36,337 bases of DNA. Source: Thermoanaerobacteraceae bacterium (GTDB lineage: Bacteria > Bacillota > Thermoanaerobacteria > Thermoanaerobacterales > UBA4877). This document shows, one piece after another, positions 2,578 through 33,727 of the stretch (the first letter of the stretch is position 1; each line of letters opens with the position of its first letter). A model generated the notes under the pieces. It searched no databases and was not told the DNA's origin. It was given only the letters and a program-made list of their open reading frames with translations. Made by a program: the position numbers and the translations under genes. Location: NCBI GenBank assembly GCA_030016635.1, contig JASEJQ010000020.1, positions 1 through 36,337 on the forward strand, given 5' to 3'.

Positions 2578-3306
2578 ATGCTTAGAGCGGAAAATATATG
2601 TAAATATTTTGGCAGCAATCAGGTCCTGCAGAATGTCTCTATGGAGGTACAGGATGGTGATGTGGTGGTTATTATAGGGCCAAGTGGCTCGGGAAAAAGC
2701 ACATTCCTAAGATGTCTTTCCCATCTGGAGAGAGTAGACTCAGGAAGGATACTGGTAAATGACAAGGTGATAACCAGGGAAACAAAAAAGATAAATATTT
2801 CCTCTGACATTGGTATGGTCTTTCAAAGCTTCAATCTCTTTCCACACATGACAGCCTTGCAGAATGTTATGGAAGGTCCGGTTACTGTTAAAAAAATACC
2901 CGTTAAGGAGGCAAGAGAAATCGCTGCAGACCTCCTGAACAAGGTAGGGCTTTCAGACAGGATGGACTATTATCCTTCAAAACTTTCAGGAGGGCAGCAG
3001 CAGCGGGTAGCGATAGCAAGGGCACTGGCGATGAATCCAAAGATAATGTTGTTTGATGAACCAACATCAGCCCTTGACCCCGAGCTGGTGGGAGAGGTTT
3101 TAAATGTTATGAAGAAACTGGCAAAGGAAGGGATGACCATGGTTGTAGTTACCCATGAGATGGGTTTTGCCAGAGAGGCGGCAGACAGGGTGGTGTTTAT
3201 GAGCGAAGGTAAGCTTTTAGAGGAAGGTATACCTGAAGAGGTATTCACATCACCTAAGAATTCCAGGACAAGGTCATTTTTATCTTCGGTTTTAAGTCCA
3301 ACATAA
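2578..3306 (+). CDS. glnQ: Amino-acid ABC transporter ATP-binding protein (GlnQ-like)
   Basis: Cytoplasmic ATPase that powers the importer. Visible motifs in order: Walker [11 protein letters not shown]-loop in [12 protein letters not shown], signature [15 protein letters not shown], Walker [14 protein letters not shown], and the H-loop in [10 protein letters not shown]. The ATG at 2578 (242 aa) is preferred over the GTG at 2569 because GGGGTG is correctly spaced for it. The gene follows the permease by 11 nt and closes the operon; a small terminator comes directly after. The symbol reflects family resemblance; glutamine as substrate is not shown. Confidence 0.9.
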
Positions 3307-7319: not shown

Positions 7320-7590
7320 AAACAATCTTAAAAGCGTTGAGGGAAAATAGTAAGGTAAAGCTGAGATGTAAAGAGAGCGCGGCCACCGGCTGAAAGCTGC
7401 GCCATCGAGGTTGCCCGAACCCATTCCTGAGTTGTAGGCGATGAGTCTTACCGGGGTCCAGCCGTTAAAAATGGAGGAGTATTACCAGAGGGTGTACTCT
7501 TTTTTGAGCCGGGCTTTATAGCCAATTAAGGTGGTACCGCGGAATCTAACCTTCCGTCCTTTATAGAGGATGGAGGGTTTTTTAATTATA
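7320..7590 (+). promoter_or_regulatory. T-box riboswitch, proline-specific (specifier CCA), controls proC
   Basis: Stem I carries AGAGAGCG (from about 7370) and a base helix GTAAG / CTTAC. The specifier loop reads GAAC-CCA (CCA at 7421-7423), a proline codon that matches the downstream gene. The conserved antiterminator sequence AAGGTGGTACCGCGG is at 7528-7542. The terminator (CCTTCCGTCCT / AGGATGGAGG, then T6) spans about 7550-7587. Uncharged tRNA-Pro should favour antitermination and raise proC expression. Confidence 0.93.
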
Positions 7591-15261: not shown

Positions 15262-15487
15262 AACAAAGAATATATAAAATGCTATGAAGGGGAAAGTATG
15301 AACTTACTGGCATACAGAGAGTTGACCCACGGCTGAGAGGTCAGCTGCCGTGTGGTTTAGAACCCACCCTGGAGCTGGGAGTGATGAGCTCTTCCGGATA
15401 TCCGTTATCTATTTGAGTGGGCCTTGCGCCAATAAGGGTGGTACCGCGGAACCTTCCGTCCCTGTTAAGGGATTGGAAGGTTTTTTA
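15262..15487 (+). promoter_or_regulatory. T-box riboswitch, proline-specific (specifier CCA), controls proS
   Basis: Stem I includes CAGAGAGTTGACCCACGG. The specifier loop reads GAAC-CCA (CCA at 15364-15366), again proline. The antiterminator core GGTGGTACCGCGG is at about 15437-15449, followed by the terminator AACCTTCC / GGAAGGTT with T6 to about 15487. It should raise transcription of proS and the downstream ProRS-like gene when tRNA-Pro is uncharged. Confidence 0.93.
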
Positions 15488-15606: not shown

Positions 15607-17049
15607 ATGGCAGATGAAAATCAATTTGTGAAAGAAATTACACCTATGGATGAGGACTTTTCACAGTGGTATATTGATACAATACTAAAGGCAGAGATGG
15701 CAGATTATTCTACTGTAAGGGGATGCATCGTGTTCAGGCCCTATGGTTATGCTATATGGGAAAATATGCAGCATCTCTTGGATAAGAGGTTTAAGGAAAC
15801 AGGACATAAAAATGCCTATTTCCCGCTCTTTATTCCAGAGTCATTACTCCAGAAGGAAGCTGAACATGTGGAAGGTTTTGCTCCTGAGGTAGCCTGGGTT
15901 ACCCACGGGGGCAGCGATGAGCTGGCGGAGAGGCTTGCTGTAAGGCCTACATCCGAGACGATAATATGCAGTATGTATTCAAAATGGATAAAATCCTGGA
16001 GAGACCTGCCTGTCCTGATCAATCAGTGGGCAAATGTGGTCCGCTGGGAAAAGAGCACCAGGCCGTTTTTGAGGACCTCAGAATTTCTGTGGCAGGAAGG
16101 ACATACTGCCCACAGGACAGAAGAGGATGCCGAGGAAGAGACGCTGAAGATGCTTGAGGTTTACAGGGATTTTGTGGAGACAGAGCTGGCTATACCTGTA
16201 ATAAAAGGCAGAAAAACTGAAAATGAAAAGTTTGCCGGAGCATTGAGGACCTATACCATTGAAGCCCTGATGAAGGATGGCAAGGCACTGCAGGCCGGTA
16301 CCTCCCATAATCTTGGTCAGCATTTTGCAAGGGTATTTGATATACAGTTCCTGGATACTGATGGACAATTGAAATACGTATGGCAAACATCGTGGGGCGT
16401 ATCTACGAGGTTGATTGGAGCACTGATCATGACCCACGGCGATAATAGGGGATTAAAACTGCCGCCCAGGGTAGCTCCCATACAGGCAATAATAATACCT
16501 ATACCGGGTCAGGACAGCGAAAGCGTGTACGCGAGGGCAAAAAAACTTGCAGGCAGCCTGAAGGATAGATACAGGGTGGAACTGGATATGAGCGATGAAA
16601 AGACCCCTGGCTGGAAGTTCAATGAATATGAGATGAAGGGTGTGCCTTTGAGGATTGAGATTGGACCGAGGGATGTAAAGAATAATCAGGTTGTACTGGT
16701 CAGGAGAGATACAGGAGAGAAAATGATTGTATCTCAGGATGATTTGAGCACGAAAATTGGAGAACTGTTAGAAGATATACAGAGAAATATGTTCGCACAG
16801 GCAAAAACCTTTGTTGAGAAAAATACTAGTGTTGCAAAAAGTTTCGATGAGTTCCAGAATGCAATAGAGAGTAAGAGAGGCTTTGTAAAGGCCAACTGGT
16901 GCGGAAGTTCTGAATGTGAGCTTGCAATAAAGGAAAAGACCATGGCAACCATCAGGTGTATACCTTTTGAAGATAATGAGCCAGATGGTGAATGTGTACA
17001 CTGTGGCGGGAAGGCTTCAAAAAAGGTTATTTTTGCGAGGTCATATTAA
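15607..17049 (+). CDS. proS: Prolyl-tRNA synthetase, archaeal/eukaryotic type
   Basis: Charges tRNA-Pro with proline in the cytoplasm. The 480-aa length and motifs fit the short archaeal-type class II enzyme: TSETIICSMYSKWIKSWRDL, motif 2 in RTSEFLWQEGHTAH, motif 3 in WGVSTRLIGALIM, an anticodon-binding domain, and the type-specific C-terminal zinc-like domain (WCGSSECELA, then CVHCGGKA) ending in ARSY. It has no INS editing insertion. The start at 15607 follows GAAAGGAAGG; earlier in-frame ATGs lie within a repeat fragment. The proline T-box upstream controls it. The ProRS-like gene begins 1 nt after its stop, so the two are probably translated together. Confidence 0.96.
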   Translation: MADENQFVKEITPMDEDFSQWYIDTILKAEMADYSTVRGCIVFRPYGYAIWENMQHLLDKRFKETGHKNAYFPLFIPESLLQKEAEHVEGFAPEVAWVTHGGSDELAERLAVRPTSETIICSMYSKWIKSWRDLPVLINQWANVVRWEKSTRPFLRTSEFLWQEGHTAHRTEEDAEEETLKMLEVYRDFVETELAIPVIKGRKTENEKFAGALRTYTIEALMKDGKALQAGTSHNLGQHFARVFDIQFLDTDGQLKYVWQTSWGVSTRLIGALIMTHGDNRGLKLPPRVAPIQAIIIPIPGQDSESVYARAKKLAGSLKDRYRVELDMSDEKTPGWKFNEYEMKGVPLRIEIGPRDVKNNQVVLVRRDTGEKMIVSQDDLSTKIGELLEDIQRNMFAQAKTFVEKNTSVAKSFDEFQNAIESKRGFVKANWCGSSECELAIKEKTMATIRCIPFEDNEPDGECVHCGGKASKKVIFARSY

Positions 17050-17050
17050 T

Positions 17051-18457
17051 ATGAATATGTCGGATATAGTTCCGTGGCCTTTAAAAGATGTTTCAAAGAA
17101 TATGGGCGACGAGACGAGCAGATTGATGATAAGAGCGGGTATAACAAGGAAAATAAATGCATATAACCTGCTCTATATGCCTCTGGGTATTATGGCAATG
17201 GATAAACTCATTGATAGGATACTTAAAGGGTATGGCAGTATATATGAGATAGTCCATGATGATCTTGATGATAAAGGATGGAAAGCACTTTTCAGACTTT
17301 TAAAGGACGAAATTAGCGCAAGACAGATGGCATTTTATGCACACATGGGTACCAAACTGGAGGTATATTTTCAGGAGGGAAAATTTGCAAAGGTCTATAT
17401 ACCTGAGTTTCTCCGGAAATATATAAAAAATGTAACTGGTACATCTGCTTATGCTGCGATAAATGAGTCTGGTAATAAGAGATTTCTCTACTGCCAGGAA
17501 TGTGGTGCACTTTATCAACCCGATATATTGGAGATTAAGATGGATTTGGGGACACCGCAATCGGTCTCTGATATAATGGAGGTTTATACTCCAGGCGCGG
17601 TAACTATAGATAAACTCTGCAAATGCCTGGATATTGCACCTCAAATGACGGTAAAGACCATGATATATGAGATAGAAAAACAGGGCAAAAAGGATTACTA
17701 TGCCGTAATCGTAAGAGGGGACAGGACAATATCTTCTGAGAAGCTCAGGAAATATTTTGAGGCTGATAGTGTTGGCCTGGCCGATGAATCAATTGTAGGA
17801 TCTATAACCGGTTCACCTCCTGGGTTCTGCGGCCCTGTGGGGATAAAGGCCAAAATATATGCTGATATGGAAATAAGCTATATGGATGAAACGGTTGCAG
17901 GCGCAAATAAGCTGGATACTCATGTGGTGGGTTGCACTCCAGGAAGAGATTTTCAGGTAGAAAAATATCTGGATTTAAGATGTGGTGTTGAGGGTGACCC
18001 TTGCCCGCAATGCGGTGCCAGTTTAAAAACAGTCAAAGGGAATATCGCAATAGAGGGATATAAATCTGCAGAGGGCATATCCAGGTGGATTTATTCCATA
18101 GGACAGCTTTTGACAGCCATTATCAGAAATGAGATGGATGATAACGGGATTAAATGGCCGGATGATTTATCTCCCTTTGATGCTGCTGTTGAAGTGACTT
18201 CACCTAAAAATGAGATGCTCTGCAATGAGGCCAGAAGCATCACTGAGCGTTACAGCCATGAGTTTAATATTCTTTATGATGATAGAGATCTGGGACTTAA
18301 AACACGTCTATCAGACATGGACCTTCTTGGCATTCCCTGGACAATAATAGTATCCGGCAGTTCTCTGGAGAAGGGTACATATGAACTCAGGAAAAATGGC
18401 GGAGAACCTGTAGAGGTTGAAAAAGAGAAAATCGCTGAAATTTTAAAACTCAATTAA
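17051..18457 (+). CDS. Degenerate bacterial-type ProRS paralogue with INS (YbaK-like) editing domain
   Basis: 468-aa protein, start ATG 17051 (GAGG ~10 nt upstream, inside the end of proS). Residues 26-46 (MIRAGITRKINAYNLLYMPL) match the N-terminus of bacterial ProRS (LMLRAGYIRQ...YLPL). Residues ~176-193 (MEVYTPGAVTIDKLCKCL) match the entry to the INS domain. The INS deacylase keeps VKTMIY (Lys202, the likely counterpart of the editing lysine) and the loop GSPPGFCGPVG (254-264). The C-terminus matches the end of the catalytic domain and the anticodon domain (DDNGIKWPDDLSPFDAAVEV). The motif 2 region is missing and motif 3 reads YSIGQLL, with its arginine lost, so aminoacylation is not expected. 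The whole chain is ~100 residues shorter than bacterial ProRS. It probably deacylates mischarged tRNA-Pro in trans for the editing-deficient ProRS encoded just before it. CxxC pairs (Cys148/151, Cys318/321) may bind zinc. Confidence 0.85.
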   Translation: MNMSDIVPWPLKDVSKNMGDETSRLMIRAGITRKINAYNLLYMPLGIMAMDKLIDRILKGYGSIYEIVHDDLDDKGWKALFRLLKDEISARQMAFYAHMGTKLEVYFQEGKFAKVYIPEFLRKYIKNVTGTSAYAAINESGNKRFLYCQECGALYQPDILEIKMDLGTPQSVSDIMEVYTPGAVTIDKLCKCLDIAPQMTVKTMIYEIEKQGKKDYYAVIVRGDRTISSEKLRKYFEADSVGLADESIVGSITGSPPGFCGPVGIKAKIYADMEISYMDETVAGANKLDTHVVGCTPGRDFQVEKYLDLRCGVEGDPCPQCGASLKTVKGNIAIEGYKSAEGISRWIYSIGQLLTAIIRNEMDDNGIKWPDDLSPFDAAVEVTSPKNEMLCNEARSITERYSHEFNILYDDRDLGLKTRLSDMDLLGIPWTIIVSGSSLEKGTYELRKNGGEPVEVEKEKIAEILKLN

Positions 18458-18465
18458 ATAATTGA

Positions 18466-18517
18466 ATATAAACCACCCAAAATACACAGAATAAATGTGT
18501 AGGAGGGTGGTTTATAT
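18466..18517 (+). promoter_or_regulatory. Long hairpin burying the start site of the next gene
   Basis: A perfect 13-bp stem (ATATAAACCACCC 18466-18478 with GGGTGGTTTATAT 18505-18517) encloses a second 6-bp stem (TACACA 18483-18488 with TGTGTA 18496-18501). The ribosome binding site GGAGGGTGG (18502-18510) lies in the internal loop and 3' arm, and the first two bases of the ATG at 18516 lie at the foot of the stem. There is no T-tract, so it is not a typical terminator. It looks like a translational switch or RNA thermometer, or a stability element after the ProRS-like gene. Confidence 0.7.
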
Positions 18518-18782
18518 GTCTACTATTACTGTTAACCTTGGTGATTTCAATCCAATAATGGATGGTGTCAAGGTAAAAAGGGTTATTGAAAATGCTTCTG
18601 ACGAGGACGAGATTGTCATAAATATTAATAGCAATGACGCCGTTGGTGCATATAACATTTACAGTATTTTGGAAAATGGTGGCTATGAGTTTCTTCCCAA
18701 AGCAACCGATAACGGCAAGACCTATACCATCATAGCCCATAAAAGGAGGGTCTCAGATGCCGAAACAAACGGATTTGAGTAG
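18516..18782 (+). CDS. Small unrecognised protein, possibly TusA-like fold (88 aa)
   Basis: 88-aa acidic protein starting MSTITVNLGDFNPIMDGVKV. The ATG at 18516 has GGAGGGTGG 5 nt upstream; an upstream in-frame ATG at 18495 has none. The pattern of a strand, a helix, DEDEIVININSNDAVGAY, a second helix and a final GKTYTIIAHKRR strand pair is like the small alpha/beta sandwich of TusA/SirA proteins. The diagnostic Cys-Pro motif is absent, so sulfur transfer is not supported. Translation start is enclosed in a long hairpin. It overlaps the next small gene by 26 nt, so the two are probably a unit. Confidence 0.65.
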   Translation: MSTITVNLGDFNPIMDGVKVKRVIENASDEDEIVININSNDAVGAYNIYSILENGGYEFLPKATDNGKTYTIIAHKRRVSDAETNGFE

Positions 18783-33476: not shown

Positions 33477-33499
33477 TAAATTAGTATGAATTAAATGCA

Positions 33500-33727
33500 T
33501 TGATAAGGATAAGTAGATGCGTCAAGTCTCAAAGAGAGGGACTGTCACCGGCTGAGAGCAGACCCGGGCCACTTGATGCAGTCGAATTGCACCTTTGAGC
33601 AGCACACCTGAATTTCCGTAGGGTTGTGCCGGAAGCTCCGTTATAGCTTTAAGTGAAGGTATATTTTTATACCTTAACAAGAGTGGAACCGCGGATACCC
33701 GTCTCTTATGAGGCGGGAATTTTTATT
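33500..33727 (+). promoter_or_regulatory. T-box riboswitch, cysteine-specific (specifier TGC), controls cysE-cysS
   Basis: Stem I includes AAAGAGAGGGACTGTCACCG. The specifier loop reads GAAT-TGC (TGC at 33588-33590), a cysteine codon. The antiterminator core AGAGTGGAACCGCGG is at about 33680-33694. The terminator CCCGTCTC / GAGGCGGG with a T-rich tail spans about 33698-33727. Uncharged tRNA-Cys should turn on cysteine synthesis and charging together. Confidence 0.93.

Follow-up and report, generated by a model that had tools for sequence, protein, structure and literature searches.

A bacterial-type prolyl-tRNA synthetase without an aminoacylation site, encoded beside an archaeal-type enzyme: a putative trans-editing factor

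Editors of tRNAPro and the closest precedent

In bacteria, the INS domain of prolyl-tRNA synthetase (ProRS) hydrolyses Ala-tRNAPro (PMC3973320; PMC11295145). INS has no intrinsic recognition of tRNAPro and works with any acceptor stem, depending instead on the ProRS anticodon domain, which reads G35/G36 (PMC3973320; PMC11295145); how that domain exerts control over an editing site some 70 Å distant is a stated open problem (PMC3973320). The lysine of the INS superfamily is strictly conserved and required for deacylation (PMC10164551). According to a 2024 review, every member of this superfamily except the ProRS INS domain is a single-domain protein (PMC11295145). ProXp-ala, an INS-superfamily hydrolase, acts in trans in bacteria whose ProRS has no INS, and its single domain reads the acceptor stem of tRNAPro (PMC3973320, PMC10164551). 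YbaK, another single-domain protein of the tRNA_edit fold, works alongside ProRS in trans and is specific for Cys-tRNAPro. In some Archaea, Ser-tRNAThr is edited by the free-standing ThrRS-ed, a truncated ThrRS without a catalytic site (PMC9976931; also PMC7373986), which is drawn with an editing domain plus an anticodon domain (PMC11295145).

Here we describe a protein, P0001, from a window of 36,337 nucleotides (the whole stretch of DNA analysed) of a Thermoanaerobacteraceae bacterium. By analogy, ThrRS-ed would be the closest precedent for this dead ProRS. Both derive from a synthetase, combine an editing domain with an anticodon domain in the absence of a catalytic site, and are paired with (or, for P0001, would serve) a synthetase that has no editing domain. 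The likeness remains one of analogy because the editing domains are not homologous: that of ThrRS-ed is DTD-like, N-terminal and part of a different synthetase, ThrRS, in Archaea, whereas the dead ProRS has its INS inserted within the catalytic domain, stems from a displaced bacterial ProRS and is partnered with an archaeal-type synthetase whose gene immediately precedes its own. P0001 gave no hit to PRK14938, the Ser-tRNA(Thr) hydrolase model, and the matches to it in L049 and L062 are merely weak ones, restricted to the anticodon domain. The tRNA_edit fold, and a presumed action in trans, are shared with ProXp-ala and YbaK; unlike them, the dead ProRS retains a whole synthetase frame with the anticodon domain. 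The initial annotation had set the protein apart from known free-standing single-domain editors, which holds, but it did not name archaeal ThrRS-ed, a close precedent. We found no report of a full-length editor derived from ProRS in the open-access literature (subscription papers were not covered).

The gene pair and the residues lost and kept

The features of the locus are collected in Table 1. The stop codon of proS occupies 17047-17049 and the ATG-initiated frame of P0001 starts 1 nt downstream, as the initial annotation had it. The upstream enzyme is a clear archaeal-type ProRS (TIGR00408, E 1.2e-189, 631 bits, cut-off 437), with the Pfam domains tRNA-synt_2b, HGTP_anticodon and ProRS-C_1; a Pfam search found no tRNA_edit domain in it. 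The leader that precedes the pair matches the full-length RF00230 model with 104.4 bits (gathering score 93). Its specifier region reads GAA-CCC-A, that is, the proline codon CCC, and its UGGU-containing antiterminator fits a tRNAPro with A73, so that a proline T-box, as had been claimed, does precede the pair. The tRNAPro genes found in this genome have CGG and UGG anticodons, the bacterial C1:G72 pair and A73. Two more T-box leaders lie in the window, at 7328-7564 and 33491-33709 (96 and 111 bits).

Table 1. Positions of the T-box leader, the two genes and the domains of the second protein in the window
Feature	Position	Strand	Basis
T-box leader, proline specifier and UGGU antiterminator bulge	15275..15466	+	Rfam RF00230, upstream of the proS pair
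proS, archaeal-type ProRS, 480 aa with start Met, no INS	15607..17049	+	TIGR00408 and Pfam
Catalytically dead bacterial-type ProRS (P0001, 468 aa), INS and anticodon domain kept; proposed trans-editing factor	17051..18457	+	
Degenerated N-terminal catalytic half, residues 1-176	17051..17578	+	Alignment; conserved-position scoring
INS / tRNA_edit domain, residues 180-294, with K202, G258-P262 loop and H291	17588..17932	+	Pfam PF04073, 69-73 bits
Class II anticodon-binding domain, residues 386-466	18206..18448	+	Pfam PF03129, 33.5 bits, cut-off 21

By descent and overall fold, with INS and anticodon domain in place, P0001 qualifies as a bacterial ProRS. An AlphaFold2 model (pLDDT 89.5, pTM 0.83) finds its best structural match in the E. 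faecalis ProRS 2j3l, end to end over 461 residues (Z 29.5, rmsd 3.5), which agrees with the likeness along the whole length that had first been noticed by eye. In sequence, the match to bacterial ProRS extends from residue 132 to the end (2j3l, E 1e-34; 5znj, E 7e-36), and the profile PRK09194 is matched with 194 bits, under its cut-off of 558. With TIGR00011 the score is only 29.3 bits (cut-off 153.25), so P0001 does not belong to YbaK, and with 468 residues, an N-terminal remnant and an anticodon domain it does not meet the single-domain definition of ProXp-ala either. The protein thus shares with a P-type ProRS such as 2j3l the whole-length fold, the INS active site and the anticodon domain, and differs from it in having neither THEE nor motifs 2 and 3; Pfam detected tRNA_edit and HGTP_anticodon in it, and no tRNA-synt_2b.

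We aligned nine dead proteins with 42 intact bacterial ProRSs and scored, for each dead protein, the share it keeps of the positions with at least 90% conservation among the 42. In P0001 the motif 2 stretch and THEE are deleted, and the motif 3 sequence GCYGIGxxR has become SRWIYSIGQ. THEE and motif 2 are missing in all nine dead proteins and an intact motif 3 is found in none, so the requirement for a functional P-type ProRS, motifs 2 and 3 with the catalytic arginine plus THEE, is met by no member of the set. At the same time, all nine share without variation the INS lysine, the G/G/P residues of the loop, GAN and the histidine. P0001, with K202 and the GxxGP loop at G258-P262, has both the conserved lysine and the G..GP loop that mark the INS superfamily. 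In alignment A1, its I186, L189, K202 and H291 fall on I263, L266, K279 and H369 (E. coli numbering), residues known to matter in the INS pocket. Both statements of the initial annotation about these residues, that motif 2 and the motif 3 arginine are gone and that the INS lysine and loop remain, thus withstand comparison with intact enzymes.

Retention is uneven along the chain. The dead proteins keep 77-93% of the strongly conserved positions in INS and 46-86% in the anticodon domain, against 26-47% between INS and motif 3, 10-50% in the N-terminal segment (10-25% in the members linked to proS) and 3-28% from THEE to motif 2. P0001 itself keeps 20% of the N-terminal part, where the motif 1 region survives in outline together with C148 and C151, and 3% of the THEE-motif 2 segment. 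Its anticodon domain, with DDR and GxP retained and KF changed to RL, is the most degraded of the set (46%). At 468 residues, against about 570 for an intact ProRS, P0001 is about 100 residues shorter, and therefore its catalytic domain was trimmed and not merely mutated. As far as sequence can tell, P0001 is confirmed as a real open reading frame that has lost its aminoacylation site and retains the residues of its editing site.

Four cysteines of P0001 (C148, C151, C318 and C321) form two CxxC pairs; in alignment A2, which holds dead and intact proteins, three of them are invariant and one nearly so. They are possibly a metal site.

Distribution, selection and history of the locus

Ten genomes, belonging to four families, were found to carry the dead ProRS: the window genome and G001 (f1), G073, G114, G149, G182, G279 and G422 (f41), G386 (f138) and G145 (f37). 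A search of the genome contigs with P0001 alone had returned one match, a distant ordinary ProRS. In nine of the ten genomes, covering three families, the gene lies directly 3' of an archaeal-type proS, with G145 as the exception; the G149 gene is split by a contig break, its N-terminal part still adjoining proS. Wherever upstream sequence was examined, a T-box stands ahead of the pair. That of G001, G386 and G422 is a proline T-box scoring over the gathering threshold; G073, G114, G182 and G279 have a T-box match with E values of 1e-15 to 1e-17. The G145 copy (L062 1348-2961, on C55) is less decayed, with 527-538 aa and motif 2 lost, and the archaeal-type proS of that genome is on another contig. 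This copy possibly represents a separate, younger loss of catalysis.

P0001 and its relative in G001 are 58% identical. Between the dead ProRSs of G000 and G001, INS is 78% identical and the rest 51-53%, with synonymous sites near saturation, and for the G073/G279 pair dN/dS ranges by domain from 0.07 to 0.20. On these substitution patterns, the dead ProRS gene is under purifying selection.

Archaeal-type ProRS is present in 109 of the 398 genomes of our phylum sample. Eight of these carriers have a dead ProRS among the matches listed, 15 have an additional full-length bacterial ProRS, one (G054) has a remnant without INS, and 85 have no bacterial-type match, although in one of the latter, G256, proS is close to the end of its contig. 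Among the matches listed for the genomes of the sample without an archaeal-type ProRS, there was no dead copy. An association of the dead form with archaeal-type ProRS, which the initial annotation had predicted, is thus seen for every dead copy found, nine of the ten lying beside the archaeal-type proS. In the class of the window (37 genomes) the dead form occurs in only two, both of f1; 34 others have bacterial-type matches, which are full-length frames except in G009, where the match is at a contig end. A check of the 15 genomes with both types for hidden dead copies met only full-length bacterial-type frames (568-629 aa), and in every genome regular expressions recovered motif 2, motif 3 or both. 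Weak A1 matches in G208, G333, G366 and G404 turned out to be the archaeal-type ProRS itself, reached through its anticodon domain.

In six genomes (G001, G073, G182, G279, G386 and G422) the dead ProRS is the sole tRNA_edit protein detected. It does not follow that an archaeal-type ProRS always needs such a partner: of the 70 genomes whose only ProRS is of the archaeal type, 27 lack tRNA_edit domains altogether, and editing is therefore not obligatory for this enzyme. A clean alternation between dead ProRS and ProXp-ala was also considered and dropped, as the stand-alone editors of the sister clade (G232, G325 and G346) resemble the YbaK-like GGVCPF type, and not ProXp-ala, on visual inspection. 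The window genome encodes a second tRNA_edit protein on another contig (C35), which is YbaK/EbsC-like (78 bits, cut-off 153) and could share the editing job with P0001.

Gene order records how the two enzymes met. Intact bacterial proS typically sits between ispG and a glycosyltransferase (GT) gene followed by mgtC (e.g. L008, L013, L025, L040, L048 and L063), and ispG-[bacterial proS]-GT-mgtC is the ancestral order. In several genomes that have only the archaeal type, the archaeal proS occupies this same slot (L073, L079, L081, L082 and L084), and in f41 and f138 the slot holds both, as ispG-[archaeal proS]-[dead ProRS]-GT-mgtC. Because the slot is shared, we infer that the archaeal proS entered the resident proS locus and that the enzyme already there was either pared down or lost; the proposed replacement of the bacterial ProRS by an archaeal type is thereby visible as an in-place swap in f41 and f138. 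The pair of f1, to which the window belongs, sits elsewhere, after an EF-G-like gene and before ctsR.

G054 offers a different outcome. Directly upstream of its archaeal-type proS lies a 305-aa piece of a bacterial ProRS (L100 1124-2038, on C47), in which INS is deleted and motif 3 kept, the reverse of what the dead ProRS retains.

In a phylogenetic tree, the nine dead proteins all fall to one side of a branch (support 97/93). Three of them are long rows, and because of the long branches the grouping is unsure. The archaeal-type ProRSs of the carriers do not form one clade; four changes are needed, at least three of them forced by well-supported branches. A single origin of the dead ProRS followed by losses or transfers, and repeated origins, both remain open.

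The proposed editing role and its alternatives

An INS and an anticodon domain without a charging site are the features to be expected, by sequence, of a ProRS-derived protein that edits Ala-tRNAPro on its own. We consider it likely that P0001 edits misacylated tRNAPro in trans, Ala-tRNAPro being the most probable substrate; its activity, substrate, choice of tRNA and co-transcription with proS are all inferred. According to this model, the former bacterial ProRS became redundant once proline charging passed to an archaeal-type proS devoid of an editing domain, and it would then have lost its aminoacylation site and been retained as a stand-alone proofreading enzyme. The gene would be co-transcribed with the new proS from the proline-responsive T-box, and both proteins would therefore be produced when charged tRNAPro runs low. 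The dead ProRS may read G35/G36 of tRNAPro through its anticodon domain, while INS would take the mischarged 3' end and hydrolyse the wrong amino acid in trans, most likely Ala and possibly other small residues too. Editing may take place after release from the archaeal-type ProRS or upon handover by it, any physical contact between the two being inferred. The dependence of INS on the anticodon domain (PMC3973320) would explain the survival of a dead synthetase instead of a bare INS. With only 46% retention in the anticodon domain, the evidence for such tRNA recognition is weaker in the window than in f41.

Members of the INS superfamily vary in amino acid and tRNA specificity (PMC11295145), and the weakened anticodon domain of f1 could signal a relaxed choice of tRNA, so that the INS may instead edit some other misacylated tRNA (Cys-, Ser- or 2-aminobutyryl-tRNA, for example, or one that is not tRNAPro). 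We find this improbable, however, as the profile is that of a bacterial ProRS INS and not of YbaK (194 bits for PRK09194, 29 bits for TIGR00011), the INS pocket residues are conserved, and gene order links the dead ProRS to proline charging. Poorer still are the prospects of a mainly structural or regulatory partner that binds the archaeal-type ProRS in a complex, hetero-oligomeric or for handover. The two genes are almost always neighbours in one orientation, the class II motif 1 region is kept in outline, and duplicated synthetases that hetero-oligomerise have been a subject of study (PMC4787780); yet the linked members retain so little of their N-terminal segment (10-25%), conservation is greatest at the INS active site and not at an interface, and the G145 copy is unlinked. 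A decaying pseudogene, an old proS on its way out after replacement, is very hard to maintain: entire blocks of the catalytic domain are indeed deleted and G054 shows what a true remnant beside an archaeal-type proS is like, but the frames are open in ten genomes of four families (a contig break alone splits that of G149), INS is selectively retained under low dN/dS (G073/G279), and the G054 remnant has the opposite pattern.

If P0001 is a trans-editing factor, the old ProRS probably survives in several bacterial lineages as a separate corrector of proline-tRNA errors. We lean, though only slightly, towards a previously undescribed class of quality-control proteins, namely full-length pseudo-ProRSs that arose through in-place displacement of proS, select tRNA with the anticodon domain and edit in trans with INS, and that possibly evolved more than once. 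Bearing on repeated origin are the archaeal-type ProRSs of the carriers, which are not one clade, and the unlinked, less decayed copy of G145. Such a class would show how a synthetase can be swapped for a non-proofreading enzyme without loss of fidelity, the displaced enzyme being trimmed to its editing function and kept alongside. It would also give the INS superfamily a free-standing member of several domains, the others being single-domain proteins (PMC11295145), and would make the problem of anticodon-editing coupling testable, because the dead ProRS would couple the two without a charging site between them.

A very stable hairpin follows the dead ProRS gene at 18465-18518 (UAUAAACCACCC ... 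GGGUGGUUUAUA; -28.9 kcal/mol and z -8.2 for 18445-18520). It has no U-run and is therefore no ordinary terminator. The hairpin buries an AGGAGG and the start codon of a small open reading frame (18516-18782, 88 aa) that is conserved in G001 and has sub-threshold similarity to TusA (14.5 bits, E 0.03). In G001 the same hairpin precedes the orthologous small frame (L005, about 3075-3130), with a longer gap 3' of the dead ProRS, and the structure could act as a translational switch.
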